From Asanoa ferruginea (GTDB lineage: Bacteria > Actinomycetota > Actinomycetes > Mycobacteriales > Micromonosporaceae): a stretch of 64,000 nucleotides of DNA. This document shows, piece by piece, positions 9,321 through 63,929 of the stretch; position 1 is the first letter of the stretch; each line of letters starts with the position of its first letter. The position numbers and the translations under genes are program-made. Location: contig NZ_QUMQ01000001.1 in NCBI RefSeq assembly GCF_003387075.1, forward strand, positions 7,440,001-7,504,000, written 5' to 3'. Under the pieces are notes generated by a model that made no database searches, was not told the origin of the DNA, and saw nothing but the letters and a program-made list of their open reading frames with translations.

Positions 9321-10808
9321 TCAGCCTCCGTTCAGCTTGCGCTGGACGAACTCGTACGCGAGGTCGCCAACCTCGGTGGCGTAGTCTCTGGCCGCATCGA
9401 CGGAGGCCGGGAAGTTCTCGCCACCCCAGATCCGGCTCTGGCCGCAGTCGTCGGCCCAGGCGCTCAAGCTGCTCCAGTGCAGGGTCAGGTCGTTGGCTGG
9501 CGTGATCCCGGGTTCGACCAGCGAGGAGCCCTTGAGCGCGGGAGAGAAGATCTCCAGCGAGTCCGTGTCGATAAAGCGGCGCGCCTGCTGTGCGTACGAG
9601 AAGCAGAGCGCGGCATGTGCCGACGGATACTCAGGAGATCCGATAGACAGTGAGCTCAGGTAACCCTGCCATTCGGCGCCTGTGATGTCGTTGACGGTGC
9701 CCTTTCCCGGGCCGCCCCACGCCGTTACCTTCTTCTCTCCGTAGAGATGGCGGATGGCACTGAACGGCCGCACCGAGTCGTACTTGCGCTTGTAGTACCA
9801 GGAAGCGATGGTCACGTCGATGCCGGTGACCGCCCCGGTCACGACATAGTGGATGCTGTCCTCGGTGTTGAGATTGCCGCCCACGACGATTCGACCGGCG
9901 ACGGCCCCGTATGGCCGAACCAGGTCGTCGAACAGCTCCGCGCTCATCTTCTTGCGGTCGTCCAGGCCCGCAGACGCCTCGAGCACCTCGTCGGCCTGGG
10001 TCCGGTAGGCCCTGCGGTTGTGTGCGTAGTCGCTGGCGGTCGGCCGGGCCACGCGCAGCTGCTCGGGGCTCTTGTATGAGAACGGCTTCATCCGGCCGAA
10101 CTGCGGCGTCGCGAACTCCTGGGCGGTGAAGACCTCGCGTTTCTCCACAATGTTCGGTTGCCAGCGGGACGGATCGCGCAACAGTTGTGGCGTGTTCACC
10201 GGCCGGTATCCGGTGTAGTCGGCGTACGGCTGCTGGTTGTACTTGCGGCCGCCCTCGTCGCCGTACCGGTTGCTGCCGTCGTGTTTCCGCGCCGCGATGG
10301 CGTTCCTGGCCGCGAGAATTCCGATGCCACTGGGAGTGGCTGGATCAGCCGCCGTGTTGTTGGGATCGAGACCGGCTGTGGTCATCATTTCCAGCCACGT
10401 CGCCTTGTATTGGGGAAAGACGATGTTCAACGACGTGAACGCGGAATAGATGACCGCGATGTTCTTATTTCGCGTCGTACGTTCCTCCACGGGGCGGCGG
10501 CCGAGGTTGGAGAAGATGCCGACGGCGGTCGGGTGGTAAGGCGACAGCGCATCGAACCATGGCATTTCGACGAGCAGCGCGCTGTCCCCGCCATACATCA
10601 TGGGACGACCGAAATGTTCGTCGCGGGCCACGGTGTCAAACCGCGGGTAGATGAGTCCGATCAGGGCGTTCCCGTTGTCAAGGTCGAACGTCGGCGCCGC
10701 TGGTGCCGCCTTGACGGCACCCGACAGCGACGCCAGCAGGGCCGCGGTCACCGCAACGGCCGCCGCGGCGCGCAGGCGGCGGCGACCCATCCGCCCCAGA
10801 ATCGTCAT
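9321..10808 (-). CDS. Secreted vanadium-dependent haloperoxidase-like protein (copy 1), axial His replaced
   Basis: This 495-residue protein has a signal peptide-like N-terminus (RRRLRAAAAVAVTAALLASL... ending AAPAAP). The C-terminal half belongs to the PAP2/vanadium haloperoxidase superfamily: KRKYDSVRP at about residues 341-349 (vanadate-binding K-x6-RP), EYPSAHA at about 396 (place of PSGH) and SRIWGGEN at about 460 (place of SRxxxGxH). The His that coordinates vanadate in active enzymes is Asn here. So it may use a different cofactor geometry or be a non-halogenating catalyst, as for homologues that rearrange or cyclise meroterpenoids. A paralogue lies at 29258-30814. The gene is divergent from a secreted protein, with an ACTACTCG site between them. 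Confidence 0.75.
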   Translation of the reverse strand: MTILGRMGRRRLRAAAAVAVTAALLASLSGAVKAAPAAPTFDLDNGNALIGLIYPRFDTVARDEHFGRPMMYGGDSALLVEMPWFDALSPYHPTAVGIFSNLGRRPVEERTTRNKNIAVIYSAFTSLNIVFPQYKATWLEMMTTAGLDPNNTAADPATPSGIGILAARNAIAARKHDGSNRYGDEGGRKYNQQPYADYTGYRPVNTPQLLRDPSRWQPNIVEKREVFTAQEFATPQFGRMKPFSYKSPEQLRVARPTASDYAHNRRAYRTQADEVLEASAGLDDRKKMSAELFDDLVRPYGAVAGRIVVGGNLNTEDSIHYVVTGAVTGIDVTIASWYYKRKYDSVRPFSAIRHLYGEKKVTAWGGPGKGTVNDITGAEWQGYLSSLSIGSPEYPSAHAALCFSYAQQARRFIDTDSLEIFSPALKGSSLVEPGITPANDLTLHWSSLSAWADDCGQSRIWGGENFPASVDAARDYATEVGDLAYEFVQRKLNGG

Positions 10809-10931
10809 CGGACGTTCTCCTTTCGATCAGCCAGCCGCAATGCGCACACGATGCATCGCGAGCGATTTCGCGGATGAGAAGCAGGATTGGCGGATTGCAA
10901 GGAGATTAGCCGTCGCGGATTCCCGAGGTCC

Positions 10932-10961
10932 ACTACTTGATCGAGTAGTCGATACTACTCA
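10932..10961. promoter_or_regulatory. Cluster-wide ACTACTCG repeat, site A (three half-sites)
   Basis: ACTACTTG (10932-10939), CGAGTAGT (10942-10949) and ACTACTCA (10954-10961) form alternating inverted half-sites in the divergent promoter region of the haloperoxidase-like and secreted-protein genes. The same half-site recurs in other intergenic regions of the window (21035, 29158, 53347, 60702). The binding protein is unknown. Confidence 0.55.
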
Positions 10962-11030
10962 CGGCGGTATTGCCGCAGCACACGCGCGCCGCGAGGATGG
11001 ATCAAACAAATCTAATATATGGAGGTAAAT

Positions 11031-11930
11031 ATGCGGACGGCAATCCGGGCCGCTGCCGCCATCCTGGTGGCGCTCACCGCGGGCGCCCTCGTCGCACCAT
11101 CCGCCCAGGCCGCGACAGCACGCAGCGGCCAGGCGCAGTGTGGCCTGGTCGACGTCGTCGACGGCACCGACGACTTCACCTCGCCCGCTTCGGTCGCCTC
11201 GGGGGTACGCACGTTCCAGGTCACTACCGCCGACCCGAGTGGCATAGTACTGGGGCTCTTCCGGCTCGACGACGGTGTCGCCATCAACGATTTCCTCACG
11301 TTGCTCCGAGTCGCCTTCGCCGGGCAGGGCGACCAGCGCGTCGAGGCCGGCAGACAGGTCCAGGCCCAGTCCACATTGCTCGGCGGCGTCTCCGCGGTGA
11401 CGGGCCGGCCGGCTACCTTCACCCAGACCCTGGTCCCTGGCACGTACTATTTGATCAACTATCGGGACATCCTGGCCAACCCGAACGGGGCTGTCGGCGT
11501 GCACCCGCTGACAGCGACCAATCAGTGGGTCGCCTGCTCGCCGCCGATCCCCCGCGCGACCGTCCAGATGATCGACACGGCCGACGGGCCGCGCTACCTG
11601 GCACCCACCAGCCTGCGCCAGGGAGCACCGATTCTCGTCGTCAACCTCTCAGGTCGGATCCAGGAGGCGGTGATCCGCCCGGTCGGGCCGAACGTGACCG
11701 CCACGGACATCGAGCTGTTCTTCCAGGCGGTGGACAACGGGCAGCCGCCGCCGAGCATTCCGTTCGTCGGGCTCCTCCCACAGGGAATGCCCGTCATCCA
11801 CTCGCCGCTCGCGGCGATCATCCAACCGAACCTGGCCCCCGGGCGCTACGCCATGCTCTCGTTCCTGCTGGATGACGAGGGCGTGCGGTACGCCGCAAGC
11901 GGCACGGTCGTCGTGTTCGACGTCATCTGA
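11031..11930 (+). CDS. Secreted hypothetical protein
   Basis: A 299-residue protein starting at the ATG at 11031, which has GGAGG just upstream (the in-frame ATG at 11019 precedes that site). A classic Sec signal peptide ends near residue 28 (VAPSAQAATA). The rest is soluble and beta-rich: FQVTTADPSGIVLGLFRLDD, PATFTQTLVPGTYYLINY and RYAMLSFLLDDEGVRYA suggest two similar halves of a sandwich-like fold. I do not recognise the family. It is divergent from the haloperoxidase-like gene and shares its control region, so it may act outside the cell with that protein. A strong hairpin terminates it. Confidence 0.7.
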   Translation: MRTAIRAAAAILVALTAGALVAPSAQAATARSGQAQCGLVDVVDGTDDFTSPASVASGVRTFQVTTADPSGIVLGLFRLDDGVAINDFLTLLRVAFAGQGDQRVEAGRQVQAQSTLLGGVSAVTGRPATFTQTLVPGTYYLINYRDILANPNGAVGVHPLTATNQWVACSPPIPRATVQMIDTADGPRYLAPTSLRQGAPILVVNLSGRIQEAVIRPVGPNVTATDIELFFQAVDNGQPPPSIPFVGLLPQGMPVIHSPLAAIIQPNLAPGRYAMLSFLLDDEGVRYAASGTVVVFDVI

Positions 11931-11983: not shown

Positions 11984-14203
11984 TCAGCGCGCTGACACGG
12001 TCTCGACGGCCGGGACACCGCTCCGGTCCGTCTCGCGCAGGCCGAACCTATGGTGCAGGCGGCGTAGCGGAGCCGGCGCCCACCAGGTCGCTCGGCCGCC
12101 GAGGCGCATCAGGGCGGGCAGCAGGGCACCGCGGATGAGGGTCGCGTCGATCAGGACCGCCAGCGGCAGCCCGATCCCATACGCCTTCACGTAGGTGATG
12201 CCGGAGACCGTGAAGCCGAGAAACACGATCGAGATGACGACGGCGGCGGCGGTCACCATCCGTCCGATGCGTTCGAGCCCCACCGCCACCGCGGTCGTGC
12301 CGGAACCCGTCCGCTCGTACTCCTCGCGGATGCGCGCGAGCATGAACACCTGGTAGTCCATCGCCAGCCCGTACGAGAGGGCGAACAGCATCACGGGGAT
12401 CGTGGACGCGATGGTGCCGGTGACGGTGAAGCCGCCGAACAGGCCGGAGAGGTGACCGTCCTGAAAGATCCACACCAGGGCGCCGAAGGTGGCGGTCAGG
12501 CTCAGCGCGCTCAACAGCAGGGCGAGGAACGGCAGCAGGACGCTGCCGGTCAACAGGAACAGCAATACCACCATGGTGACGGCAACGAGCAGCAGGACGT
12601 AGGGAAGCCGTTCGACAAGCACGTCGGTGGTGTCCACACTGACCGCCGCGGCCCCGCCCACCAGCACGGGAAACGGTGCGGGGGCGGCCCGCACGTCCTC
12701 GACGAGGTGCAGTGCGTCGTCGGCCTCGGCCGTGGACGGCACCACGGAAAGGTAGACGCCGTCGCCGATCGCGAACCGCTGGTGTGTCGGCCCGGTCGGC
12801 GCGGCCATCGAACCGGCGACGTAGCTACCGGTGACCGTGTCCACCCGCCCGACGTTGGGCAGCTGGGACAGTCGCATGGCGTACGCGCCGACTTCTGCCG
12901 ATCCGGCGTCGGCCCGGATAGCCACGACCTGGAGGGTGTTCAGTTCGGCGCCGTCGAAGTTCTGCCGGATGAGGGCGGTCACCTGCCGCGCTTGCGAGGA
13001 CTCCGGCATTGAGCGCTCGTCCGGCATGCCGAGCCGGATGCCGAGGAACGGCGCGCCGAGCAGCAGCAGGAACGCGACGACCAGGACCGCGACCGGCACC
13101 GGACGGCGCATGACGAACGTCGCGAGGCGATGCCAGAACCCGGAGTCGGCGGTCTCGGAGGCCGCCACTGGTCGACGCCGGCGCAGCACCCGTCCGCGGT
13201 CGATCCGCGTGCCCAGCACCGCGAGCAGAGCGGGTAGCACGGTGACCGAGCCGAGCGCGGCGAAGACGGCAGTGATCATCGCGCCATACCCCATGCTGCG
13301 CACGGCAGGCAGCGGAATCAACACCAGTCCGGACAGGACGAGCACGATGGTGACGGCCGAGAACACCACGGTGCGACCGGCTGTGGCCATCGTCCGATGG
13401 ATCGCGGCCTGGATGTCCCGACCGTTCGCCAGCTCCTCCCGATATCTGTTGATCATCAGCAGGCCGTAGTCGATCGACAGACCCAGCCCGAGCAACGTCA
13501 CGACGCTGACCGCGAAGACCGACAGGTCGGTCGCCGAAGCGACCACCCACAGCACTCCCAGGCCGACCAGCATCGTCACGAAGGCCACCGACAGCGGCAC
13601 GAGGGCGGCGATGATCGCGCCGAAGACGAACACCAACACGATCATGGTGAGCGGGAACGCGATCGCCTCGCCCTTGGCGCCGTCGGACTGGCTCAGCTCC
13701 GTCGTCTCCTTCCAGAACATCGCCGAACCCCCGACGCGCACGTCCAGACCGTCGCGGGCCCCTTCGTACCGCGGCACGAGATCGGCCAGCACCTTGTTGA
13801 TGGTCGTCTCGTCGCCACGGACGGTTGCACCGACGAGCGCCTTCGTGCCGTCGTGGCTGCGCAGTTGGGGTGGCATGCCGGCGGTCCAGTAAGAGGTCAC
13901 GTTGACGACGTCCGGCTCGTCGGTGAGCCGTTGACTGAGCGCGGCAGCCGCCCGCGACGCGGCGGGGTCGTCCACCCCCTGCGGCGCGCTGACGACCAAC
14001 GTCAGATTGGGTGTCCCCTGTCCCCCTGCATCCAGCACCGCCGCGGCCCTTCCGGATTCAGCGTCCGGGTCCGCCAGACCTCCGGCGGTCAACTTGTCGA
14101 ACAGCGTCACGCTGGCCGTGCCGCCGGCCAAGGCCAGCAGGACGGCCACGACGAGAACCGTCCGGCTCCGCCGCAGCAACAGCCGCGACAGCTTTTCCAG
14201 CAT
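11984..14203 (-). CDS. MMPL family (RND-type) transporter 1
   Basis: This protein of about 739 residues has the MMPL layout of two six-helix repeats, each led by one helix and a large extracytoplasmic loop. LGLGLSIDYGLLMINRYREEL marks the first repeat and ALSYGLAMDYQVFMLARIREEY the second; the Asp-Tyr pairs are the proton-relay positions of MMPL exporters. Such proteins export lipids or lipophilic natural products and often give self-resistance. The ATG at 14203 follows GAGGGAG, with a GTG at 14212 as alternative. It is divergent from the ECF sigma gene and shares its promoter region. A second exporter of the same family lies at 58443-60614. Confidence 0.88.
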   Translation of the reverse strand: MLEKLSRLLLRRSRTVLVVAVLLALAGGTASVTLFDKLTAGGLADPDAESGRAAAVLDAGGQGTPNLTLVVSAPQGVDDPAASRAAAALSQRLTDEPDVVNVTSYWTAGMPPQLRSHDGTKALVGATVRGDETTINKVLADLVPRYEGARDGLDVRVGGSAMFWKETTELSQSDGAKGEAIAFPLTMIVLVFVFGAIIAALVPLSVAFVTMLVGLGVLWVVASATDLSVFAVSVVTLLGLGLSIDYGLLMINRYREELANGRDIQAAIHRTMATAGRTVVFSAVTIVLVLSGLVLIPLPAVRSMGYGAMITAVFAALGSVTVLPALLAVLGTRIDRGRVLRRRRPVAASETADSGFWHRLATFVMRRPVPVAVLVVAFLLLLGAPFLGIRLGMPDERSMPESSQARQVTALIRQNFDGAELNTLQVVAIRADAGSAEVGAYAMRLSQLPNVGRVDTVTGSYVAGSMAAPTGPTHQRFAIGDGVYLSVVPSTAEADDALHLVEDVRAAPAPFPVLVGGAAAVSVDTTDVLVERLPYVLLLVAVTMVVLLFLLTGSVLLPFLALLLSALSLTATFGALVWIFQDGHLSGLFGGFTVTGTIASTIPVMLFALSYGLAMDYQVFMLARIREEYERTGSGTTAVAVGLERIGRMVTAAAVVISIVFLGFTVSGITYVKAYGIGLPLAVLIDATLIRGALLPALMRLGGRATWWAPAPLRRLHHRFGLRETDRSGVPAVETVSAR

Positions 14204-14264
14204 GATCTTCACTCCCTCAGGGTCGCTTTTGTCTCGACGTGCCTACGATGTGGTGGATCACCGA

Positions 14265-14304: not shown

Positions 14305-14323
14305 ACGAGACCGGGGAGTGGCC

Positions 14324-15310
14324 ATGCGCGACGGTGCGACGGACTCCGTCGACGAGGCGACGGAGCTTTACCTCGACGAGCGCGACCTGCTCTTCTCCCT
14401 CGCCTACAACCTGCTCGGCAACGTGGCCGACAGCGAGGACGTCCTCCAGGACACCTGGCTCTCCTGGGTATCCGCGCAGCGAGCGGAGATCGCGAATCCT
14501 CGCGGATACCTCGTCCGGATCGCCGTGAACGCGGCCCTGGCTCGGCTGCGGGACGCCAAGCGATCCCGAGAGCGTTACGTCGGCCCGTGGTTGCCGGAAC
14601 CGGTTGTGACCGATCCGGACGCCGTCGATTCCGCGGTCCGGGGTGAGTCGCTGTCGTTGGCCGTGATGGTGATTCTGGAAACGCTGACCCCACTGGAGCG
14701 GGCCGTATTCGTCCTGCACGAGGCCTTCGGATACCAGCACACGGAGATCGCCGCGCTGCTCGGACGGACGCCGGTGGCGGTCCGTCAGCTTGCGCACCGG
14801 GCGCGTCAGCACGTGCGGTCCGGCCGGCCGCGTCAGCCGGCCCGTCCACAGGTGGTCCGGGCCGCCACCCAGCGTTTCCTCGACGCCGCCCTCGGCGCCG
14901 ACGTCGACACGCTCCTGGAGGTGCTCTCTCCCGGAGTGCGCCTGTGGAGCGACGGCGGCGGCCGCCGACCCGCCGCGCTGCGAGTCATCGAGGGACGGGC
15001 GAAGGTGCTGCGGCTGGTCACCCGCAACCTGTCCGCTCTGCCCGCGTTGACGGTCCGGCCCGTCCACGTGAACGGGGAACCGGCGGCGCTGCTGTTCGCC
15101 GGCGCCACCCTGTACGCGGTAGTCGTAGTCGAGCTCCGCGAGGACAGTGACCAGGTGAGCGGGATCTACACGATCCTCAACCCGGACAAGCTGGCCGGAG
15201 TCGACCGGAGCGGGCAGGTCGATCAAGCGGCCATCGCCCGCTCCCGGCCCGGCTCCGGCAGTTCGGCCGGCGGGAACACCCGAGGACGGTTGAGCCTCCA
15301 CGGTGACTGA
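14324..15310 (+). CDS. ECF RNA polymerase sigma factor, SigJ-like with C-terminal SnoaL-like domain
   Basis: A protein of about 328 residues. Region 2 is visible as LLFSLAYNLLGNVADSEDVLQDTWLSW, and region 4 as LTPLERAVFVLHEAFGYQHTEIAALLGRTPVAVRQLAHRAR. The 150-residue C-terminal extension (RFLDAALGADVDTLLEVLSPGVRLWSDGGG) has the NTF2/SnoaL-like pattern of the ECF41/SigJ group, where it replaces a separate anti-sigma factor. The ATG at 14324 follows GGGGAG. The gene is divergent from MMPL1, and its last 88 bases overlap the end of the terpene cyclase gene on the other strand. ECF41 factors usually control a neighbouring gene; MMPL1 is the obvious candidate. Confidence 0.85.
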   Translation: MRDGATDSVDEATELYLDERDLLFSLAYNLLGNVADSEDVLQDTWLSWVSAQRAEIANPRGYLVRIAVNAALARLRDAKRSRERYVGPWLPEPVVTDPDAVDSAVRGESLSLAVMVILETLTPLERAVFVLHEAFGYQHTEIAALLGRTPVAVRQLAHRARQHVRSGRPRQPARPQVVRAATQRFLDAALGADVDTLLEVLSPGVRLWSDGGGRRPAALRVIEGRAKVLRLVTRNLSALPALTVRPVHVNGEPAALLFAGATLYAVVVVELREDSDQVSGIYTILNPDKLAGVDRSGQVDQAAIARSRPGSGSSAGGNTRGRLSLHGD

Positions 15311-15993
15311 CCTTCGGCGCGGATCTGCCGGTAGATCATGCGGATGTAGATGACGTCGAGGACGAAGATGATGACGAACCACGACAGTACGAGGTGGCGG
15401 CCAGGGAAGATGATCAACGTATTGAGTCCCGCGAGCAGCGAACCCATCATCTTGCAGATGCCGACGTAGAGCGACTGTCCCGCGGACGACCGCCGTTTGA
15501 TCAGCGTCACGATGAATGCGGCACTGATACCGACGTTCAGCAGGCAGCCGCTATACATGCCGAGGATGTCCCGGAACTCCCGCGCCGACAAGAACAGCTC
15601 GATCGCCGCGAGCAGGACCAGCGCCCAGAAGAGCTGTTTGAACAGCTTGCGAGGCAACGACGGGAAGTCCTTGTGTCCCCAGAGCATGATCTGGATGACG
15701 ATCACCATGTCGATGAAGACCCACGCGAAGTTGGCGGGGCGCTGCGCGGGTTCCTGGTCGATGACGATCGAGTGGACAAACTCCCAGGCAAAGTTGATCG
15801 CCACGACGACGACCGGGATGCCCACGAACTTGTCCACGAACGCACGTTGGATCGCCAGGCCGTAGGCCAGTGCCCAGAAGGTCCCCAGACCGACCACGAT
15901 GGTCCAGAACCAGAGGTTACGGAAATCCCGTGGTTCCGACACGGCGGACGCCACGTCGGGCAGATCGAAGATCGCGGGTGGGAGCCAGTCCAT
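15223..15993 (-). CDS. Pyr4/DmtA1-type integral membrane terpene cyclase
   Basis: A 256-residue protein with about seven membrane segments. Two acidic residues sit where the essential Glu and Asp of fungal Pyr4 lie: Glu71 in NFAWEFVHS and Asp213 in FVLDVIYIRM; Asp95 is in a third segment. Pyr4-family enzymes protonate an epoxide or alkene of a prenylated aromatic at the membrane and start cyclisation; the bacterial DmtA1 does this for drimentines. The gene is last in an operon with an adenylating ligase, a UbiA prenyltransferase and a prenyl diphosphate synthase, a context that supports cyclisation of a farnesyl or geranyl chain. The family call rests on topology, length and the acidic residues. 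Confidence 0.75.
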   Translation of the reverse strand: MDWLPPAIFDLPDVASAVSEPRDFRNLWFWTIVVGLGTFWALAYGLAIQRAFVDKFVGIPVVVVAINFAWEFVHSIVIDQEPAQRPANFAWVFIDMVIVIQIMLWGHKDFPSLPRKLFKQLFWALVLLAAIELFLSAREFRDILGMYSGCLLNVGISAAFIVTLIKRRSSAGQSLYVGICKMMGSLLAGLNTLIIFPGRHLVLSWFVIIFVLDVIYIRMIYRQIRAEGQSPWRLNRPRVFPPAELPEPGRERAMAA

Positions 15994-17643: not shown

Positions 17644-18612
17644 TTATCCAGCGAAGAAGGTGGCCACCGCGAGGCCGACGAAGCCGAGGTCGTAGGCCAC
17701 GAAGGCCGCGACGCGAGCCGTGCGCCAGCGGTCACGAGTGATCGCCAGCCGGAGCTGGGCGGCGTGCAGTGCGGTGGCGGGCAGCAAGGCCAGGGCAGTC
17801 CACCAGGGCATGACAGGCGACGTGGCGAGCGCGGCGATCGTCGTGACCGAGATGATCAGGTAGGTCACCAACGCGCCCTTGACCACCCACATCGGCGCGG
17901 CGACCGGCAGCGTGCGCCGGCCCACCGCGGCATCGCCGTCACGATCGCCCACATTGGAACATGAGACGAGCATGACCAACCAGAGGCCCATCAACACGCC
18001 TTGGAGCACGCCGACCATCGTCCAGCGCCCCTCCACCGCGAGGTAGGGGAACAGGAACCCACCCGCGGTGCCGACGCCGAGCAGAAACTCCGAGCCGCCG
18101 AGGTGATAGCTGAACCGCAGACCGCCGGAATACTGCGGTCCGAGGACGGCGCACGCGACAAAGATCAACACGGCGGAAATCGGGACGTCCCAGTCGAGGA
18201 CCGCGAACGCCGCGAAGCCGGTGACGAACGCGAAGATCTCGGCGAACACCGCGAACACGATCGCCTGACGTTCCGTGAGAGCGCCACTGAGCAGCGGCTT
18301 GCGCCGGAGGTCCCGGCGGAACCCGGGTCTGATGTAGTTGGCGGCGTCGCTGCCGTTGCGCAAGCCGATGATGTCGTCCACCGTCGCCGTCGCGGCCACG
18401 ATGCCGGCGGACGAGAGCAGGAACAGCGCGAGCGCCGCTACGGCACCAGGCCGTTGCAGTGCCGCCGGACTCAGCAGCAGCGCCGCCAGCGCCCACGGAA
18501 AGAAGTGCAGGTAGACCGACACCTTGGAGATGCGGACCAGCCCCACCAGCGTTCGCCACCGCGATGGGTCACCACGGTCGGTGACAATCTCCGGGGTCAT
18601 CGAGGACACCAT
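17644..18612 (-). CDS. UbiA-family aromatic/membrane prenyltransferase
   Basis: The 322-residue protein has eight or nine hydrophobic segments. The first Asp-rich motif is degenerate (TVDDIIGLRNGSD in place of NDxxDxxxD) and the second is SNVGDRDGDAAVGRRTLP, matching the DxxxD of UbiA enzymes that bind the Mg-diphosphate. UbiA enzymes transfer a prenyl group to an aromatic acceptor inside the membrane. It lies between a prenyl diphosphate synthase (12-base gap) and an adenylating ligase, so donor and acceptor supply are in one transcript. It is separate from the soluble ABBA prenyltransferase at 45866-46759, so the cluster can prenylate twice or by two modes. Confidence 0.85.
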   Translation of the reverse strand: MVSSMTPEIVTDRGDPSRWRTLVGLVRISKVSVYLHFFPWALAALLLSPAALQRPGAVAALALFLLSSAGIVAATATVDDIIGLRNGSDAANYIRPGFRRDLRRKPLLSGALTERQAIVFAVFAEIFAFVTGFAAFAVLDWDVPISAVLIFVACAVLGPQYSGGLRFSYHLGGSEFLLGVGTAGGFLFPYLAVEGRWTMVGVLQGVLMGLWLVMLVSCSNVGDRDGDAAVGRRTLPVAAPMWVVKGALVTYLIISVTTIAALATSPVMPWWTALALLPATALHAAQLRLAITRDRWRTARVAAFVAYDLGFVGLAVATFFAG

Positions 18613-47952: not shown

Positions 47953-47954
47953 CG

Positions 47955-53271: not shown

Positions 53272-53346
53272 TGTCTTTTCCCCAGCCGGGGCGCCCAATA
53301 CCGGATCGACATGGTACGACGGTAAGCGCCGGATGGGGGCAGTGCC

Positions 53347-53473: not shown

Positions 53474-53510
53474 ACGCGGACGAATCTCCAGAGAAACGCG
53501 GGGTGGCAGC

Positions 53511-55988: not shown

Positions 55989-56006
55989 CCGGCGGTCAGC
56001 TGGCCG
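55978..56006. terminator. 13-bp hairpin with 3-base loop between convergent LAL genes
   Basis: CGGCCAGCTGACC (55978-55990) pairs with GGTCAGCTGGCCG (55994-56006). It covers the stops of both convergent regulator genes, so it probably ends both transcripts. Confidence 0.8.
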
Positions 56007-58056
56007 CTCCGTGCGCGTGACCGGCCCGGTAGTTCGCGTCCTCGTCCATCGAGTAGACCGCGGCCGTTCCCGTGTAGGTCGCCGCACCGCGAACGAGTTC
56101 GACACGGGTTCCGATGCCCAGCTTCTTGTAGATCTTCCTCAGGTGGTAATTGACCGTGTGCTGCGACAGATGCACCTGCTTGGCTATCTGCCGGTTGGTC
56201 AGGCCGACGCTGACCAGATAGGCGATGCGTTGCTCCATATCGGAAAGCGTCGACCAACACGCGGCGAGCGGCGAGCCCACGACTTCGGAATATGGCCCAG
56301 CGCCCTGCCGACCGTCCACCGGGGCCTTGGCCGCGTAGAGCTTGGCGAGCTCCTCGGTCGCCAGGGCAACCGAGATCGGGTCGGGCGACTGCACGATGAT
56401 CAGCGACAAGGCGGCCGGAGCACTGTTGGCGAGCGCGTTGGCGTGCATGGCGGTCAGCCCGACGACTGAGAAGCCAGGGTTGTCGCCTGCGAGACCGTTC
56501 ACCGTTTCCAGAACGCTTCGCTCGAGCTGCGAGTCGCTTACGTCACGCGCCAGAAGAACCAGGAATGCTGCGGCGCTCGGCACCTCGATATACAGGCTCG
56601 GCAGCGTCGGGAGGCAGCGGTATTTGCTGGACAAGAGCTGCGCTCCCGCGCGCGGTCCCGCCCGCTTCACCGCGATGAGCACTTCCGTCCACGCGTATTG
56701 CGCAGAATCGAGCACGGCATGCCGCGCCAAGCCTTCTTGCGCAAGCTGCGAATATCCTTCAGCTCGTGGTAGGTCTCCCATGTAGAAGGAGGCGATGCTG
56801 AGCACCGAGTATGCCAAGGGTAGAAGCATCGGAACTGCGTCATGCCCCATTGCGGCGGTCGCAGCCGCCGCCTCGCTGCGCGCATCTCCGATTCGGCCTG
56901 CCTGGAGATAGAGCCGTGCTCGCATCACCGCTGGGGCGGCCGTCCAGACCGGCAACGGAAGTGAACGCAACCCGGCTTCCACATCGCTAATCAGAGCTTC
57001 GGCCTTCTCGAACTCGCGAAGATTCGCAAATTTGCCGGCCAGCGCAAGCTGGAAATGGAGGCGCCATACCGGATCTGCACCTTCACCGTAATGCACGGCG
57101 GCGCGCCCCAGGCTCATTCCTTCCACCAGCTCGCCCAGGCGCCACAACCTGTTGGACCGCGTCATGAGCGCCATTGACGCAGCGATGTCACCCTGTTGGC
57201 TTCCCCGTTCCTGCAGGATCTGAGCTGACATCCGCTCGGCTTCATCGCTGTCGAGCAGCGAGTAACCGAGGATCAGCGACGCTTCCGCGTCGAGGCGAGC
57301 AGCGGCGGAGCTGCCCGGGCTGGCCAAAACCTCGCGGGCGACCCGGACGCCCGCTGTCGCATCCCCGCTGATCACGAGGCGATGTGCGGTCGAGCATGAT
57401 CCGCCGGTGTCCTGTCTGACCAGAATGGACGACGTGTTCGAGCGCTCACCACTCCACGGCCGGTGGTCGTAGCGATGGTCGTGCGGCGCCGACAGCCCAA
57501 TGGCCTCACGCCGCAGCGTTTCCCGGATCGGCGCCGGCATCGACGCGATCGTCCCCTGCAGGAGAAAGTCGCTCTGGAAGGCGAGCCGGTGCGCGGCGGC
57601 GATGATGAACCCGGCCGCCATCGCCTCCTCCAGTGGCGAGAGCAGGGTGGCGGCTGGTCGATCCAACATTCTGGAGACATCCTCCAACATGAATGATCGT
57701 CCGAGCGTCGCCGCGACCTTGAGGAAATGTTGGCAGCCGGCGGTCAAGTCGCTCAGCTGACGCTTCACCACGTCGAGAATGCGGCGTGGCACCCGGCGTT
57801 CGACCAGTTGGATTTTTCCGCTGCTCTCTCGGACTAGCCCTTCCTCGGTGAGTCCGAGCACGAACTCGGTCAGCATTTGGCGGCTGCCACCGGCGCCGGC
57901 CGCGAACTCGATGAGCTCGCGATCCGCCTCGACTCCGAGGATGTCCCGCAGGGTCTCCCCGTCCTGCGACCCGTTCAACATCGGCCCCCCGACGTTTGTT
58001 ACCTTACTTATCGGCGATTTCTCTTTTTCGTTACGCGCTGCACGTCCCGTTGTCAT
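55996..58056 (-). CDS. LAL-related regulator lacking the N-terminal ATPase core
   Basis: A 686-residue protein. It starts within what is normally the C-terminal part of the LAL ATPase region: MLTEFVLGLTEEGLVRE and VPRRILDVVKRQLSDLTAGCQHFLKVAATLGRSF match that segment of full-length LAL proteins, but no Walker A or B motif is present. It ends with the LuxR helix-turn-helix LSDMEQRIAYLVSVGLTNRQIAKQVHLSQHTVNYHLRKIYKKLG. So DNA binding is retained while ATP control is lost. A 386-base AT-richer gap lies upstream. It is convergent with LAL 1. Gene decay is unlikely given its intact length. Confidence 0.8.
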   Translation of the reverse strand: MTTGRAARNEKEKSPISKVTNVGGPMLNGSQDGETLRDILGVEADRELIEFAAGAGGSRQMLTEFVLGLTEEGLVRESSGKIQLVERRVPRRILDVVKRQLSDLTAGCQHFLKVAATLGRSFMLEDVSRMLDRPAATLLSPLEEAMAAGFIIAAAHRLAFQSDFLLQGTIASMPAPIRETLRREAIGLSAPHDHRYDHRPWSGERSNTSSILVRQDTGGSCSTAHRLVISGDATAGVRVAREVLASPGSSAAARLDAEASLILGYSLLDSDEAERMSAQILQERGSQQGDIAASMALMTRSNRLWRLGELVEGMSLGRAAVHYGEGADPVWRLHFQLALAGKFANLREFEKAEALISDVEAGLRSLPLPVWTAAPAVMRARLYLQAGRIGDARSEAAAATAAMGHDAVPMLLPLAYSVLSIASFYMGDLPRAEGYSQLAQEGLARHAVLDSAQYAWTEVLIAVKRAGPRAGAQLLSSKYRCLPTLPSLYIEVPSAAAFLVLLARDVSDSQLERSVLETVNGLAGDNPGFSVVGLTAMHANALANSAPAALSLIIVQSPDPISVALATEELAKLYAAKAPVDGRQGAGPYSEVVGSPLAACWSTLSDMEQRIAYLVSVGLTNRQIAKQVHLSQHTVNYHLRKIYKKLGIGTRVELVRGAATYTGTAAVYSMDEDANYRAGHAHGAAS

Positions 58057-58442
58057 AATCCCCCCGAGATTATGCGCAAAACCCGAACTTGACGGCTGTC
58101 CACGAATTTGATCATCGTAGCACAGGCGATGTCGACGATCTATCTCTTATCTGGCAGCCCAATGCCTGGCGCTTGGCACGTCTCACTGCGAACCCGTAGA
58201 ATGCCGGTCAGCCCCTGCCGATATCGGACAGAAGCCGGCAATTGCCATCATCGATTCTCCACCCCCATCGGCCTGTGACGCGGGTTACTCTATTCGACCT
58301 CTATAGAGTGCGGTCTACAACAGATGGAGTACCGCGCCTGAAGTAGTCGGCGGCACAAATTGTCTTCATACGTATGTCGACGTGGGCGACAACCAAAACG
58401 AGCATTGAGACGTTGGGTTCAATGACGCGTGAGGGAGAAGAG
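58057..58442. promoter_or_regulatory. Intergenic region with palindromes, upstream of MMPL2 and the truncated LAL
   Basis: This 386-base region between divergent genes holds no convincing ORF and is AT-richer than its surroundings. ACTCTAT (58288-58294) and ATAGAGT (58304-58310) form 7-base arms, with the inner palindrome CTCTATAGAG at 58300-58309; these could be an operator for the exporter gene. GAAGTAGTCGG near 58340 resembles a single ACTACTCG arm but has no partner. Confidence 0.5.
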
Positions 58443-60614
58443 ATGCCTACCGAGACTCGCCGCACGGACGGGGCGTTGGCGGGACTGGCCCGGTTCTGTT
58501 TCCGGCGACGCCGCCTGGTCCTGTTGACCTGGGTCGTCGGAGTGCTGGCCCTGGCCTTCCTCGGCTTCCGCTTCGGCGCACCCTCCGACAACGCCTACTC
58601 CGGTGGCGACTCGCACTCGGCCAAGGCACAGGCCCTCATCGAGCAGCACTTCCCTGACCGCCAGGGCGACACCCTCACTCTCGCGATCAAGGCGACCAAC
58701 GGCATAGACGACGCCGCCACCCGCCAACGAGTCGAGAAGGTCATCGCCGACCTCGCGGCATCGCCGGTCACGGGGCCCGTCACGTCGCCATACGACGATC
58801 CGACTCTCGTGACGCAGGACCGTCGCATCGCGCGCACCACCGTCCCGCTCACCGACATGGACGTGCCGAAGGCCGACGTCAAACCCCTGGTCGACATCGT
58901 CAAGGACGCCTCCGGCCAGGGCCTGACGCTCGGGCTCGGCGGAGACAAGGCAGAGAAAGCCGAGACACCACCGCAGGGGCCCGCCGAGGGCGTGGGTCTG
59001 CTGACGGCCGCGATCATCCTGTTCATCGCGTTCGGCTCGCTGGTGGCGATGGGCCTACCGCTGGTCACCGGCCTGATGGCGGTCCTCGGCGGCATCGGCG
59101 TGATGAAGCTCGTCGGCCATCTCGCACCTTCGCCCGACTTCACCATCTTGGTCGCCGTGCTGATCGGGCTCGGCGTCGGCATCGACTACGCGCTGTTCAT
59201 CCTGACTCGCTACCGCGACAGCCTGCACGACGGAGACGATCCCGAGAGCGCAACAGTCACGGCCATCTCGACCGCGGGTCACGCCGTTCTCTTCGCCGGT
59301 ACGACCGTGGTGATCGCGCTGCTGGGCTTGATCGCTATGGGACAGCGGATGATGACCGGCGTCGCCATCGGCGCGTCGACGGCCGTACTGGTAACGATGA
59401 TCGCCGCAGTGACCCTCTTGCCGGCGTTTCTTGGCTTCATCGGCCGCCGAATCGACTCCCTGCGCCTGCCACGGCGCACGCCTCGGCGCCCGCGTGACGC
59501 CGCACCGCGGGAGCGCCGACCGCTGGCCGAACGCTGGGCGGGCGTCGTGCAGCGCCGGCCCGTAGTTGCCGCTCTCATCGCTACTGCGATCCTGCTCGCC
59601 CTCGCCGCGCCCGCGCTGTCGATGCGGCTGAGCCTGCCGGACGCCAGCGTGCAGCCACACGACCGAAGCAGCTTCGCCTCCCACCAGATCCTTTCCGAAG
59701 GCTTCGGCATCGGCTACGGCGCGCCCATGGTCTTCGCGGCCAAGGTCGACTCGCCGGGCGCCGATCTCGCTCCCGTCGTCGAAGCGGTCAGCACAACCCC
59801 GGGCATCGCCTTCACCACCCCGCCTGCGGTCAGCCAGGACGGTCAGGCCGCCATGTTCATGGCCTTCCCCAAGACCGGCTTCCAGGACGAGGCGACGACA
59901 GACCTGGTGCACAAGCTCCGCGACGAGGTGCTGCCCCAGTCGGCCCGCGGCACCGAAGTCTTCCTCGGCGGCCCGAACGCCGGCGCGATCGACTTCGCAG
60001 AGGAGACGAGCTCGCGCCTCCCCCTGATGATCACGGTCGTGATCGTGCTGTCACTGCTCCTCCTGATCCTGCTCGTCCGGTCGGTCACGATCGCCTTCCA
60101 GGCGGCCGTGATGAACCTGCTCTCGATCGGGGCTGCCTACGGCGTACTCGTGGCGATCGTCCAATGGGGGTGGTTGGGCTCCGTGCTCGGCTTCCCCACC
60201 GAGATGCCCATCACGACCTGGGTTCCGATGATGATGTTCCCACTGCTGTTCGGCCTCTCGATGGACTACGAGGTCTTCCTGATCTCGCGGATCCGCGAGG
60301 AGTACGAACGCACCGGCGACACCCGCCAAGCCGTCACCCGCGGCCTGGCGAAGACCGCCAAAGTGATCACCGCCGCGGCGGCAATCATGATCGCAATCTT
60401 CACGACCGCCGTCCTCGGCCCCGACGTCTCCGTCAAGCAGATCGGTCTGGGTATGGCCGTCGCCGTGCTGGTCGACGCCACCATCATCCGGATGATCCTC
60501 GTGCCGGCGATCATGGAACTGTGCGGCGAGGCCAACTGGTGGATGCCCGGACGTCGGTCACGGAAGGTCGCCTCGGCACCCCCGGCCGAGGTTGAGGAAG
60601 CGGCGAGAATCTGA
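58443..60614 (+). CDS. MMPL family (RND-type) transporter 2
   Basis: A protein of about 723 residues. FRRRRLVLLTWVVGVLALAFL is the first membrane helix, GLGVGIDYALFILTRYRDSL marks the first repeat and LFGLSMDYEVFLISRIREEY the second, with the conserved Asp-Tyr relay. It resembles actinomycete MmpL-type exporters and could export the product or its lipophilic precursors. ATG at 58443 has GGGAGAAG upstream; an in-frame ATG at 58374 extends it without added homology. A strong hairpin with a T-run follows the gene. Confidence 0.88.
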   Translation: MPTETRRTDGALAGLARFCFRRRRLVLLTWVVGVLALAFLGFRFGAPSDNAYSGGDSHSAKAQALIEQHFPDRQGDTLTLAIKATNGIDDAATRQRVEKVIADLAASPVTGPVTSPYDDPTLVTQDRRIARTTVPLTDMDVPKADVKPLVDIVKDASGQGLTLGLGGDKAEKAETPPQGPAEGVGLLTAAIILFIAFGSLVAMGLPLVTGLMAVLGGIGVMKLVGHLAPSPDFTILVAVLIGLGVGIDYALFILTRYRDSLHDGDDPESATVTAISTAGHAVLFAGTTVVIALLGLIAMGQRMMTGVAIGASTAVLVTMIAAVTLLPAFLGFIGRRIDSLRLPRRTPRRPRDAAPRERRPLAERWAGVVQRRPVVAALIATAILLALAAPALSMRLSLPDASVQPHDRSSFASHQILSEGFGIGYGAPMVFAAKVDSPGADLAPVVEAVSTTPGIAFTTPPAVSQDGQAAMFMAFPKTGFQDEATTDLVHKLRDEVLPQSARGTEVFLGGPNAGAIDFAEETSSRLPLMITVVIVLSLLLLILLVRSVTIAFQAAVMNLLSIGAAYGVLVAIVQWGWLGSVLGFPTEMPITTWVPMMMFPLLFGLSMDYEVFLISRIREEYERTGDTRQAVTRGLAKTAKVITAAAAIMIAIFTTAVLGPDVSVKQIGLGMAVAVLVDATIIRMILVPAIMELCGEANWWMPGRRSRKVASAPPAEVEEAARI

Positions 60615-60766: not shown

Positions 60767-63361
60767 ATGATGGCCTTCGTATCCACGCGGGGAAGGGGTA
60801 CGTCATGCGATCCGCAACCTATGGGTAGCGCCGCCAGCGGCCAACCGGTGGCTTTACGGGCGCTGGGTCCGTTGGAGGCTTTGGTCGCCGATCGACCCGT
60901 CGACCTCGGAACGCCGAAACAGCGGACTCTGCTCACGCTCTTGGTCGCTCGCGTTGGTCAGCCCGTCACGGTCGAGACGATGCAGGACGTCTTGTGGGCG
61001 GGCAGTCCGCCTCGCTCGGCGATCGCCTCACTGCACGCCTACATAGCCAACCTCCGCAGAGTTCTCGAACCGGCTCGGGCCCCCCGGACCCCGGCGACGG
61101 TCCTCTGTCATGGCCCGCTCGGCTACCTGCTGGACCGACTCGCCGTCGACCTCGATGTCCACCGGTTCGGCGAGTACGTCGCGGCTGGGTGGCGAGCATG
61201 GGACCGCGGCGACCCGCGGCAGGCGCTGACGGAGTTCGAGTCCGGCCTGACGCTGTGGCGTGGAAAGCCGTATGCCGAGACAGCGGACGCCCCTTGCGTA
61301 GCGCCCGAGGTGGCACGCCTGGAGGAGCTGCGCCTATCGACGATCGAAGCACGCGCTGGCGCCCTGCTCGCCGTCGGAGCACGCCAGGCGGTCGCAGAGC
61401 TGGAGGGCTTCGTGCACGCTCATCCACTGCGCGAGCGTGGAAGTGAACTCTTGAGTTTGGCCCTCTACCGCGATGGGCGTCAGGCTGAAGCGCTAGGCGT
61501 GCTGCGAAACGTCCAACGCCGACTTGCTACGGAACTGGGCATCGACGCCGGACCATCGTTGCGACGCCTGGAGCGGGAGATCCTCAACCAGGACACCACG
61601 CTCGACTGGCACCCGGCGACAGGCGTCCCAACCTCCCGCATGGTCAGCGGGACCGAGCTTCTCACCGGCAACCGGACCGGACCGACGGCAGATGGGGAGG
61701 TCTTCGTCGGACGTGAGGAGGCACTGCAGCGTCTCAACGGCGCGCTCGACGCGACGGTCGCCGGTCGGGGACGGGTGATAGCGGTATCCGGCGAGCCGGG
61801 GATCGGCAAAACGACCCTGCTGCGGCGCTTCGCCGATCAGGCGGAGGCTCAGGTGGTCTGGGGCAGCTGTCCCGAACACGTCGACGCCCCTCCATTGTGG
61901 TTGTGGGAACAGGTGCTGCGGGCGGTCGCGGCCCGCTTCCCGCAGCATCGCGTACCGCGATCAGTGACTGACGTGCTGAGCGGCCACACGCAGCCGACGA
62001 CAGTCGATGCCGACGCGGCCGGCGCGACGTTGCGACCCTTCGAAGAGATCGTCGACTACCTGGCGCGGGCGACGCAGTCAGCACCGTTGGTTGTCGTCCT
62101 CGACCACGCTCACCGCGCGGACCCCGGTTCACTTCAGCTCCTGGCACACCTGGCAGCGTCGGTACCAACGACCCGGATACTGCTGGCCGTCTCATACCAA
62201 TCAGGCGAAGCGGCATCTCTCGCCGAGGCGATGGCGGCGTTGGCACGCACCGGGATGACCCGAATCGACCTTGCTGGCTTGAACGCATACGAGACCCGAA
62301 CGCTGGCGACCGCGATCCTCCAGCGGGACGTCACCATGTCCGCCGCCGAGGCATTACGTGCGCGTACCGACGGCAATCCGTTCTTCCTGGCGGAGCTGAT
62401 CAAGTCGCTGAGCCACGAGCCGGACCTGGACCAACCGCATGCGGCTCCGATGCCGGTGCAGGTGCGGGATGTGGTGCTGCGGCACGTCAGCCAACTGCCG
62501 ACGGCTGCGGCTGAGGTGTTGTCCGTGGCCGCTGCCGTTGGCCAGCATTTCGACATCGAGGTCGTCGCCGAAGCCGCATCGATCGAGATCGAGGCTGCCC
62601 TGGAGGCACTCGATGTCGCGGTCGCAGCCAGTCTGATTGCGGAAGACACCACGCAGTTGGGCTGGTTTCGCTTCACCCAGCCCTTGGTCGCCGAGGCCTT
62701 GTACGAGACGACCGGACGGCTCCGCCGAGCCCGCCTCCATCGGCGGATCGGCACGGCGGCAGCACGAGCGTGGACAGGTGCAACGGATAAGGCGGCCGAG
62801 ATCGCCCGACACTGGCTACTCGCCGCCGAACTCGACCCGACGGCGGCCGCGCTGGCCTCACAGCACGCCGCCGCGGCGGCTCGCGTCGCCGACGCAAGAC
62901 TCGCCTTCGACGACGCCACCGAGTGGTGGCGTCAAGCGCTAACCTCCGCGGAGCTCGCGGGAGAGGAGAAGCTGGACCGCTACTCGCTGCTGATCGGGCT
63001 GGGTACGTCCCTGTGCCGCGCCGGCGACGCCTGTGACGGACTCTCCAGCTTCGCCCAGGCGATGGAGGAATGCCTCGCGAGTCAGGGCAGCGGCGGCCAG
63101 CCCGAGCCCGGGTCGAGGATAACAACCGCGGTCGCCGCTCTCAGCGAGTTCAGTTCGCACGTGGCCGGCTGCGACGAACTTGGCGACCGGCTCGTCCACG
63201 TCCTCGAACGTGGGTTGCTACACATCGCCGATCCAGTACACCGCTCGCTCGCGCTTTCGTGTCTGGCTGCCGCGCGTCGGCGGGACGATGGCCTCAACTT
63301 ACGCGCCGCTGCGCTGGACGGCGCGGACTACTTCAAACCGCGCGTTTACGCGGCCACGTGA
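60767..63361 (+). CDS. SARP-ATPase transcriptional regulator (BTAD plus AAA)
   Basis: An 864-residue protein. Residues about 25-115 form the SARP winged helix (ALRALGPLEALVADRPVDLG, PKQRTLLTLLVARVGQPV, DVLWAGSPPRSAIASLHAYIANLRRVLEP). The bacterial transcriptional activation domain (about 115-275) ends with RRLATELGIDAGPSLRRLEREIL. The ATPase domain has Walker A GEPGIGKTTLLRRF, but Walker B is VVVLDHAHRADPG where DDxHxAD is usual, so ATP hydrolysis may be weak. The C-terminal TPR part is short for the family. ATG at 60821 is an alternative start. It is likely pathway-specific and placed under site E. Confidence 0.88.
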   Translation: MMAFVSTRGRGTSCDPQPMGSAASGQPVALRALGPLEALVADRPVDLGTPKQRTLLTLLVARVGQPVTVETMQDVLWAGSPPRSAIASLHAYIANLRRVLEPARAPRTPATVLCHGPLGYLLDRLAVDLDVHRFGEYVAAGWRAWDRGDPRQALTEFESGLTLWRGKPYAETADAPCVAPEVARLEELRLSTIEARAGALLAVGARQAVAELEGFVHAHPLRERGSELLSLALYRDGRQAEALGVLRNVQRRLATELGIDAGPSLRRLEREILNQDTTLDWHPATGVPTSRMVSGTELLTGNRTGPTADGEVFVGREEALQRLNGALDATVAGRGRVIAVSGEPGIGKTTLLRRFADQAEAQVVWGSCPEHVDAPPLWLWEQVLRAVAARFPQHRVPRSVTDVLSGHTQPTTVDADAAGATLRPFEEIVDYLARATQSAPLVVVLDHAHRADPGSLQLLAHLAASVPTTRILLAVSYQSGEAASLAEAMAALARTGMTRIDLAGLNAYETRTLATAILQRDVTMSAAEALRARTDGNPFFLAELIKSLSHEPDLDQPHAAPMPVQVRDVVLRHVSQLPTAAAEVLSVAAAVGQHFDIEVVAEAASIEIEAALEALDVAVAASLIAEDTTQLGWFRFTQPLVAEALYETTGRLRRARLHRRIGTAAARAWTGATDKAAEIARHWLLAAELDPTAAALASQHAAAAARVADARLAFDDATEWWRQALTSAELAGEEKLDRYSLLIGLGTSLCRAGDACDGLSSFAQAMEECLASQGSGGQPEPGSRITTAVAALSEFSSHVAGCDELGDRLVHVLERGLLHIADPVHRSLALSCLAAARRRDDGLNLRAAALDGADYFKPRVYAAT

Positions 63362-63380
63362 GCATCCCGGCCGGCTACGG

Positions 63381-63929
63381 TCAGGGCTTGCGTGCCGCAA
63401 CGCCGGCTGCCACGGCCAGCACGCCATTTAGCCAGGGGGAATAACGATCTGCGTTGTCTTCGAGATCCGCGCGCAAGCGGTCCAATGGGAGCCAACGGAC
63501 ATCGGCGACCTCAGCGGGATCGAGCCGAAAGCGCGGGTCCGCTTGCACCCGACCGATCACGACGTGGTCGTACTCGTGCTCGACCCGGCCAGTCCGCGGA
63601 TCTTCCGCCCGGTATGGATACACCCCAGCCTCGTGCAGCGTCACCCCTTGTAAGCCGATCTCCTCCATCAGGCGCTGGGAGGCAGCGTCCCGCACGGTCT
63701 CGCCGGGCGCCGGGTGACCGCAACACGCGTTGGCCCAGCGCCCCGCGAACCTAGTCTTCACCGCAGCCCGCTGTTGCACGAGCACGCGCCCCGCACCGTC
63801 CAGCAGCACCACAGAGAACGCCCGATGCAGCCGGCCTGGCGCGGCGTGCGCCTCGGCGACCGTGCAGGAACCCGTGGCCACACCGTTCCCGTCGACCAAC
63901 TCCACCAGCTGAGCTTCACGAGCACCCAT
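63381..63929 (-). CDS. idi: Isopentenyl-diphosphate delta-isomerase, type I
   Basis: A 182-residue Nudix-fold isomerase. LLDGAGRVLVQQRAAVKTRFAG is the start, WANACCGHPAPGETV carries the metal-binding Cys and His, and ASQRLMEEIGLQGV the Nudix-like Glu cluster; YEYDHVVIG-like EHEYDHVVIGRVQ carries the second catalytic Glu. It interconverts IPP and DMAPP. The mevalonate operon lacks the usual type II isomerase, so this enzyme supplies that step. The start is a start codon near 63929; convergent with the SARP gene, 20 bases from its stop. Confidence 0.93.
   Translation of the reverse strand: MGAREAQLVELVDGNGVATGSCTVAEAHAAPGRLHRAFSVVLLDGAGRVLVQQRAAVKTRFAGRWANACCGHPAPGETVRDAASQRLMEEIGLQGVTLHEAGVYPYRAEDPRTGRVEHEYDHVVIGRVQADPRFRLDPAEVADVRWLPLDRLRADLEDNADRYSPWLNGVLAVAAGVAARKP

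Follow-up and report, generated by a model that had tools for sequence, protein, structure and literature searches.

The 64,000-nucleotide stretch of the Asanoa ferruginea genome analyzed here (the window; bases 7440001–7504000 of a 9.07 Mb single-contig genome) carries, at positions 9321–63929, a gene cluster with two kinds of prenyltransferase, an ABBA enzyme and a membrane UbiA enzyme, together with a Pyr4-type terpene cyclase, and it raises the question of whether one meroterpenoid is built here or two. A preliminary description had presented the locus as a single hybrid pathway of diazepinomicin logic. A single pathway is not required, as the UbiA and Pyr4 genes belong to a cassette that is separable from the diazepinomicin-type genes and occurs elsewhere without them. 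With a probability of about 0.56, we favor a two-product supercluster, in which a diazepinomicin-type line (part A) and an inserted UbiA/Pyr4 cassette (part B) would draw on one pool of aminohydroxybenzoate (AHBA) and isoprenoids.

Genes were called from codon-position GC content and identified with Pfam and NCBIfam profiles, by which every enzyme named in the preliminary description was found at 9321–63929. The interval, from VHPO1 to the isomerase IDI, is collinear in A. iriomotensis, a species of the same genus, where every gene except the multicopper oxidase (MCO) is matched. It is also collinear in Phytohabitans suffuscus (P. suffuscus), with the exceptions that the sigma factor is unmatched, VHPO2 is a 99-residue piece, and a second ABBA gene precedes IDI; identities for P. 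suffuscus are given per piece, as many matches there are split. The tested genes to the left of 9321 are unmatched in A. iriomotensis, of which 100 kb were fetched. The gene set is thus not a chance juxtaposition, and collinearity together with the unmatched left flank indicates that the limits originally drawn are close to the true unit. Papers are cited below by PMC number, and genomes and loci carry our own G and L numbers.

A diazepinomicin-type biosynthetic line

Published primer sites mark the 3′ end of dzmP and the end of orf10 in the diazepinomicin (dzm) cluster, with a numbering of orf10, orf11, and orf12 (PMC3871700), and the locus in Micromonospora chalcea DSM 43026 contains both sites with 0 mismatches. 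Counted with the prenyltransferase as orf11, the locus has HMGS as orf10, the sensor kinase as orf12, PhzE as orf19, the EntA- and PhzD-like enzymes as orf26 and orf27, and the DAHP synthase as orf33, which fits the numbers in PMC3871700 and, as a set, the numbers orf33/19/27/26 that PMC5958127 gives as a set. Because both primer sites and counted gene order fit, we consider M. chalcea a sound stand-in for the dzm clusters of Micromonospora 046-ECO11 and RV115.

Part A is a diazepinomicin-type line. It shares with the stand-in the supply of 3-hydroxyanthranilate (3-HAA) and AHBA, the ligase, two FAD hydroxylases, the amidohydrolase homologue, VHPO1, an ABBA gene after HMGS, the mevalonate operon, and the overall order. 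Unlike M. chalcea, the window adds a cassette of UbiA, Pyr4, AMPlig1, PolyprenS2, and MMPL genes, an acyl carrier protein (ACP) with a KAS III-like enzyme, VHPO2, and IDI at the edge. The HMGS and ABBA genes overlap by 4 bp in the window, where DUF6220 and MCO separate ABBA from the sensor kinase, whereas in M. chalcea the genes for HMG-CoA synthase, prenyltransferase, and sensor kinase follow one another directly.

In terms of conservation, an ABBA-alignment scan of named genomes yielded 60 loci, and 13 of the 14 with an ABBA identity of at least 60% were combined with G395 (same genus as P. suffuscus), G277, and G184 into a set of 16 dzm-type relatives, of which G184 is the least certain. 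A 14th such locus, in Streptomyces SID5910 (L043), was omitted for its short contig, three of the ten family genomes positive for the ligase Lig2 (G261, G299, G345) lie outside the comparison, and the conservation table has three further columns for G124, G143, and one metagenome-assembled genome. All 16 relatives have VHPO1, FADhyd1, the symporter SSF, DUF6081, SDR1, EntA, FADhyd2, Lig2, the amidohydrolase homologue, GriH, GriI, and AspK; ABBA is present in 15, PhzD and PhzE in 14 each, and the exporter MMPL2 accompanies the dzm genes in 14. MCO was dropped as a core gene, being unmatched in six relatives and at merely 26% identity in a seventh. This core and the M. chalcea proxy support the diazepinomicin logic originally proposed for the locus, in which 3-HAA and AHBA are combined with the action of an ABBA enzyme. 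The 60 kb fetched from G184 (L197–L199) have the dzm-type set with no match to ABBA, HMGS, HMGR, PMK, MDD, or MK, and a distant Pyr4 homologue (32%) lies nearby. The dzm-type cluster of Actinomadura alba (L118–L122, L180–L181) is split into blocks spread across ~100 kb; GriH fragments, as well as distant homologues of Pyr4, UbiA, and AMPlig1, lie among these blocks or flank them.

The preliminary description had named a grouping of the ABBA enzyme with dihydrophenazine prenyltransferases as part of a refuting outcome, to which the scores do not point: the enzyme scores 553 bits (81% identity) against the M. chalcea dzmP locus versus 278 bits against its best solved structure, 4ee6, which is listed as "Prenyltransferase" and which we take to be the phenazine enzyme EpzP. 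Arg51 and a second arginine (65 in window numbering) are present in the window and in all 14 aligned orthologues; the arginines of DzmP Mg independence are at positions 51 and 64, and they were matched to the window by position, the alignment being one of the orthologues.

We infer the following route for part A. The DAHP synthase, PhzE, PhzD, and the EntA-like enzyme would furnish 3-HAA, while AspK, GriI, and GriH would make 3-amino-4-hydroxybenzoate (3,4-AHBA), which the two flavin hydroxylases would convert to an aminohydroxyquinone. Lig2 would adenylate and couple 3-HAA, the amidohydrolase homologue may aid closure of the dibenzodiazepinone, and the DzmP-type ABBA enzyme would farnesylate the amide nitrogen.

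The ligase–amidohydrolase pair had earlier been read as a hint of a benzoxazole product. Lig2 matches NatL2-type and AjiA1 chains (6siw, presumably NatL2, with E 1.5e-178, and 6wuq with 1e-174), and its sequence assigns it to the predicted NatL2-type ester-forming aryl ligases. The NatL2/NatAM, BomJ/BomN, and ClxA/ClxD systems (PMC7204872, PMC12118335) likewise have a NatL2-type ligase by an amidohydrolase-superfamily gene, and their acids are 3-HAA and 3,4-AHBA. In these systems, however, NatAM has two domains extending to residue 454 and binds zinc via His75, His77, His253, and Asp345 (PMC7204872), and ClxD-type enzymes are described as diverged from NatAM (PMC12118335), whereas the window protein is far shorter (253 residues). 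No HxH motif occurs in it or in the 14 listed orthologues; it has DFHVR at the first strand and a Glu in GSE(F/Y)P. Compared with the published NatAM ligands, with the His253 and Asp345 places set by inspection, it appears to lack the NatAM-type zinc ligand set. A profile search of the PDB gave no row labeled NatAM among 34, the best being an uncharacterized amidohydrolase and aryl decarboxylases, and a single-sequence search gave one spurious row only. Its AlphaFold model (mean pLDDT 67.9) matches amidohydrolase_2-type hydrolases and decarboxylases at 11–18% identity among the 50 rows listed, which is indicative only of a resemblance to ACMSD-type decarboxylases and related hydrolases. The pair is moreover embedded in dzm-type clusters, being present in all 16 relatives and forming orf23 (amidohydrolase homologue) and orf24 (ligase) in the M. 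chalcea count. We therefore rejected the benzoxazole reading on the core status of the pair and on the amidohydrolase sequence as set against the published features of NatAM, and hold such a product to be very improbable. Among NCBIfam models, GriI, GriH, and Lig2 each score highest against those of the bagremycin/ferroverdin AHBA genes (BagB/BagC/BagE), all three below the curated cut-offs.

The preliminary description had also suggested that UbiA, the Pyr4-type cyclase, and the haloperoxidase homologues were additions to the dzm scheme. This holds for UbiA and Pyr4, whose cassette is present in 3 of the 16 relatives, and fails for VHPO1, which all 16 possess and which was rejected as an addition; the additions are the UbiA/Pyr4 cassette, the ACP–KAS III pair, and VHPO2. 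At the axial histidine position, VHPO1 carries Asn or Gln in the window protein and in 15 of 16 orthologues, with His solely in G184, and the solved homologue 9l8x reads VHF there. As we take an axial histidine at this position to be the vanadate ligand, VHPO1 likely has a repurposed or scaffold role. The dzm core is clarified in that a VHPO1 without this ligand (15 of 16) and an amidohydrolase homologue without HxH are both conserved in the relatives examined. VHPO2 retains the axial His and has PSGS in place of PSGH. Elsewhere, in G035 (L034, L035), VHPO2-like genes are repeated in tandem (nine matches, of which one is short) next to two ABBA genes.

The UbiA/Pyr4 cassette and its probable substrate

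Pyr4, AMPlig1, UbiA, and PolyprenS2 are matched at 78% identity or more in three relatives, A. iriomotensis, P. suffuscus, and G395, to which close matches of hyp303, the SARP regulator, and IDI are likewise confined among the 16. The DAHP synthase, ParBreg, and VHPO1 adjoin in M. chalcea; in the window, hyp303, MMPL1, the sigma factor, Pyr4, AMPlig1, UbiA, and PolyprenS2 sit inserted between VHPO1 and ParBreg. The gaps in the order PolyprenS2–UbiA–AMPlig1–Pyr4 are 12, 12, and 42 bp, which makes a single operon of the four genes probable. G395 has a complete set of dzm genes, and its block PolyprenS2–UbiA–AMPlig1–Pyr4–sigma–MMPL lies ~10 kb past the isomerase, on the opposite side.

The cassette is also found apart from dzm genes. 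In G124, from the same family as the window genome, it is joined to ParBreg, GriH (87%), GriI (76%), mevalonate genes, and a LuxR gene; the 120 kb fetched contain no match to PhzE, PhzD, EntA, Lig2, the amidohydrolase homologue, or ABBA, and the genome has no match to ABBA (E up to 1e-10) or Lig2 (E up to 1e-120). In G143, which has no ABBA match in its genome (E up to 1e-10), the four cassette enzymes are 43–57% identical and are joined to a PabAB aminodeoxychorismate synthase (TIGR00553, 354 bits, cut-off 328), IspG, DXS, and IspH. A PobA-type (4-hydroxybenzoate-3-monooxygenase-type) hydroxylase, likewise joined to the G143 cassette, scores 546 bits against PRK08243 (cut-off 351) and falls below the TIGR02360 cut-off. 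MMPL1 accompanies the cassette in G395, G124, and G143. The G143 genes (L176, L177) form a possible stand-alone meroterpenoid cluster.

Of 354 family genomes, 5 carry UbiA at 73% or more, 10 carry dzm-type Lig2 at 78% or more, and 4 carry both (Fisher p 1.6e-6, with kinship ignored); G261, G299, and G345 have no UbiA match (E up to 1e-25). In the GriH+GriI and mevalonate trees, G124 falls outside the four two-part clusters with support of 0.957 and 0.945, and the cassette may have been joined to dzm-type supply genes on two occasions.

The cyclase is the sole PF25129 match in the genome. Glu71 (WE) and Asp213 ((L/I/V)D), which we equate with the Pyr4 catalytic acids Glu63 and Asp218, are kept in the window and all eight homologues, and the DDxxG and DxxGD motifs of UbiA in the window and all seven. 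The predicted sequence of part B begins with PolyprenS2, which would make a C15–C20 diphosphate; its compared relatives allowed no chain length to be read. The membrane UbiA would attach this chain to 3,4-AHBA from the shared pool, and Pyr4 would cyclize it via protonation, consistent with a cassette that has no epoxidase. AMPlig1 would then activate the carboxylate, and MMPL1 would export the product.

The choice of 3,4-AHBA rests on the gene neighborhood. The cassette sits with GriI and GriH in all five close members (window, A. iriomotensis, P. suffuscus, G395, and G124), and in G143 p-aminobenzoate (PABA) and the PobA-type hydroxylase would give 4-amino-3-hydroxybenzoate. As two unrelated aminohydroxybenzoate routes, each with isoprenoid supply, appear beside one kind of cassette, the cassette substrate is likely an aminohydroxybenzoate, with 3,4-AHBA our best guess in the window. 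Because GriH has a single match in the genome, both parts would share one AHBA pool. The cassette acid might instead be unrelated to AHBA and the neighborhood incidental; 4-hydroxybenzoate, for example, is a common substrate of UbiA enzymes, and distant AMPlig1–UbiA pairs stand beside DegT-like aminotransferases (named by inspection) rather than GriI/GriH. The association with GriI/GriH in 5/5 close members and the PABA-synthase and hydroxylase genes of G143 nevertheless make an unrelated acid quite improbable, even after its weight was raised for the precursor statement of PMC6524458 and the gap ORFs of the M. chalcea count, both discussed below. Among 394 genomes of the class, our own included, 12 have distant AMPlig1 relatives; 11 short loci searched contained no UbiA or Pyr4, and of four wider stretches fetched, three were searched and two had a nearby UbiA of 37%.

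A related arrangement is the zig locus for zigralones, characterized in a study that charts 264 bacterial Pyr4-like cyclases and calls them largely unexplored (PMC13307353); the window Pyr4 may already be among those 264 proteins. Like the cassette, zig brings a polyprenyl synthase, a UbiA enzyme, and a Pyr4-like cyclase to bear on a nitrogen-containing aromatic compound. According to the same source, however, zig acts on an indole, employs a TPP-dependent enzyme, and requires P450s; the cassette lacks the TPP enzyme and P450s and has instead the AMP ligase and the AHBA gene neighborhood. In the library searched, we found no paper linking 3-amino-4-hydroxybenzoic acid to prenyltransferase meroterpenoids, and none on an Asanoa meroterpenoid gene cluster or on GriI/GriH with a terpene cyclase. 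A portable UbiA/Pyr4 cassette with an aminohydroxybenzoate supply allows a definite substrate and masses to be predicted, the supply being GriI/GriH with mevalonate genes once and, apparently, PABA synthase and a PobA-type enzyme with methylerythritol phosphate genes once.

One product or two

Two products are favored because the cassette is found apart from dzm genes, relocates as a unit, and owns an exporter and a prenyl synthase. The cassette could alternatively tailor diazepinomicin, with Pyr4 cyclizing the N-farnesyl chain or UbiA prenylating the core a second time. A shared locus, farnesyl diphosphate from the dzm side, and an ABBA gene retained alongside would suit this explanation, which we consider improbable given that the cassettes of G124 and G143 have no dzm assembly genes in their fetched surroundings and no ABBA in either genome, and that the cassette carries its own prenyl synthase.

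A true hybrid, in which AMPlig1, ACP, and the KAS III-like enzyme would acylate the farnesyl-dibenzodiazepinone with UbiA-prenylated, Pyr4-cyclized AHBA, has more to commend it. Amide or ester formation is within the scope of KAS III-type enzymes, and BomK in A33853 presumably performs a transfer like the one proposed here. The ACP–KAS III pair is present in all four two-part clusters (window, A. iriomotensis, P. suffuscus, and G395), whose parts stay co-located though the cassette has moved. Among the 16 relatives, however, KAS III (at least 74%) with ACP (at least 45%) is found only in A. iriomotensis, P. suffuscus, G395, and Actinocorallia, and in the last (45%/74%) the cassette is absent; KAS III without an ACP match recurs at 37–38% in three Streptomyces. 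The pair is unmatched in the 120 kb fetched from G124, in which the cassette stands free of dzm genes, and its assignment to the cassette was thereby weakened as well. The KAS III triad is the ordinary Cys-His-Asn, and each part has an exporter and regulators of its own. On balance, we regard the hybrid as unlikely, and a single molecule bearing both halves, an open N-farnesyl chain and a polycyclic terpene that two unrelated families of prenyltransferase would make from a common isoprenoid pool, as slightly more so.

Several observations weigh against two products, or against the route drawn for them. Both parts lie in one locus in 4/4 genomes having both, which fits a hybrid equally well, and the ACP and the KAS III-like enzyme fall outside the proposed scheme and are unexplained by it. 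The dzm genes may have been lost in G124 from a complete cluster, the tree support being modest; G124 shows no AspK, and it has both FPPS and PolyprenS2, which bears on chain length. The single solved match of AMPlig1 is FadD, at E 1.7e-17. The M. chalcea count relies on three small ORFs in gaps and on one gap presumed to contain an isomerase. In addition, PMC6524458 names 3-amino-5-hydroxybenzoate as precursor of the quinone half of diazepinomicin, which differs from the 3,4-AHBA-type genes of the window, and it mentions a Streptomyces cluster with little homology to that of Micromonospora. We lowered our confidence in two products for the precursor statement and the gap ORFs. Should two products be formed, the locus would exemplify a drug-lead cluster that shares its precursor pool with a second pathway.

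Gene content and neighboring observations

The features of the locus are collected below. Beyond those listed in the preliminary description, it contains PolyprenS2, two MMPL exporters, the sigma factor, MCO, regulators of the SARP and LuxR types, and a type-1 isopentenyl diphosphate isomerase (IDI), which would make up for the lack of an isomerase in the mevalonate operon.

Table 1. Predicted genes at 9321–63929 of the window
Feature	Position	Strand	Remarks
VHPO1, VCPO/NapH-type haloperoxidase homologue without axial His	9321-10808	-	dzm-type core
hyp303	11019-11930	+	N-terminus resembles a signal peptide on inspection; unmatched in Pfam
MMPL1, MmpL3-related exporter	11984-14212	-	moves with cassette
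Sigma-70 family factor, start uncertain	14318-15310	+	moves with cassette; unmatched in P. suffuscus
Pyr4-type transmembrane terpene cyclase	15223-15993	-	PF25129 (Pyr4-TMTC) 81.2 bits, cut-off 27; cassette
AMPlig1, divergent AMP-dependent ligase	16036-17631	-	cassette
UbiA prenyltransferase, both Asp-rich motifs	17644-18612	-	cassette
PolyprenS2, second polyprenyl diphosphate synthase	18625-19698	-	cassette; 39% identity to mevalonate-operon FPPS
ParBreg, ParB/StrR-like regulator	19903-20919	-	weak HTH matches; named by inspection
Class II DAHP synthase, PhzC-like	21057-22271	-	
Acyl carrier protein (ACP)	22317-22568	-	
KAS III-like enzyme, Cys-His-Asn triad	22618-23670	-	
FADhyd1, aromatic hydroxylase	23667-25304	-	dzm-type core
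Sodium:solute (monocarboxylate) symporter (SSF), start uncertain	25326-27041	-	dzm-type core
DUF6081 protein	27605-28345	+	dzm-type core
SDR1, short-chain dehydrogenase	28338-29040	-	dzm-type core, 43-63% identity
VHPO2, VCPO-type haloperoxidase homologue	29174-30814	+	accessory
PhzD-like isochorismatase	30847-31485	-	
EntA/DhbA-like dehydrogenase	31514-32302	-	TIGR04316 349.5 bits, cut-off 300
FADhyd2, 3-hydroxybenzoate 6-/salicylate hydroxylase-like	32299-33489	-	
Lig2, NatL2/AjiA1-type aryl-AMP ligase	33500-34807	-	
Amidohydrolase_2 homologue, no HxH motif	34804-35565	-	
GriH-like 3,4-AHBA synthase	35578-36681	-	single match in genome
GriI-like aldolase	36712-37536	-	
Aspartate kinase (AspK)	37552-38826	-	
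PhzE-like 2-amino-2-deoxyisochorismate synthase, start uncertain	39037-41061	+	
Response regulator	40967-41629	-	
Sensor histidine kinase	41626-42756	-	
Multicopper oxidase (MCO)	43320-45290	-	accessory; unmatched in A. iriomotensis
DUF6220 membrane protein	45304-45756	-	
ABBA prenyltransferase, DzmP type	45866-46759	-	PF11468 211 bits
Mevalonate operon HMGS-HMGR-PMK-MDD-MK-FPPS	46756-53349	-	
LuxR-type regulators, two	53463-55988; 55996-58056	+; -	
MMPL2 exporter, dzm side	58374-60614	+	
SARP-type regulator	60767-63361	+	
Type-1 isopentenyl diphosphate isomerase (IDI)	63381-63929	-	NF002995 182.7 bits, cut-off 127

In P. suffuscus (L027) and G395 (L165), a second ABBA gene forms a set with an AMPlig1-like gene (38%) and IDI, directly to the right of the dzm-type cluster, and similar sets are present in L052 and in G006 (L033). 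VHPO1, Pyr4, FADhyd1, MK, RR, and the second ABBA of P. suffuscus (L024–L027) match in two pieces or frames, reflecting either frameshifts or sequencing errors. Outside the left border of the cluster, a glyoxalase/VOC gene of the window (7982–8404) adjoins an ArsR–phosphatase fusion and a permease, and within the regions fetched it is matched at 52–70% in 10 of the 16 dzm-type relatives.

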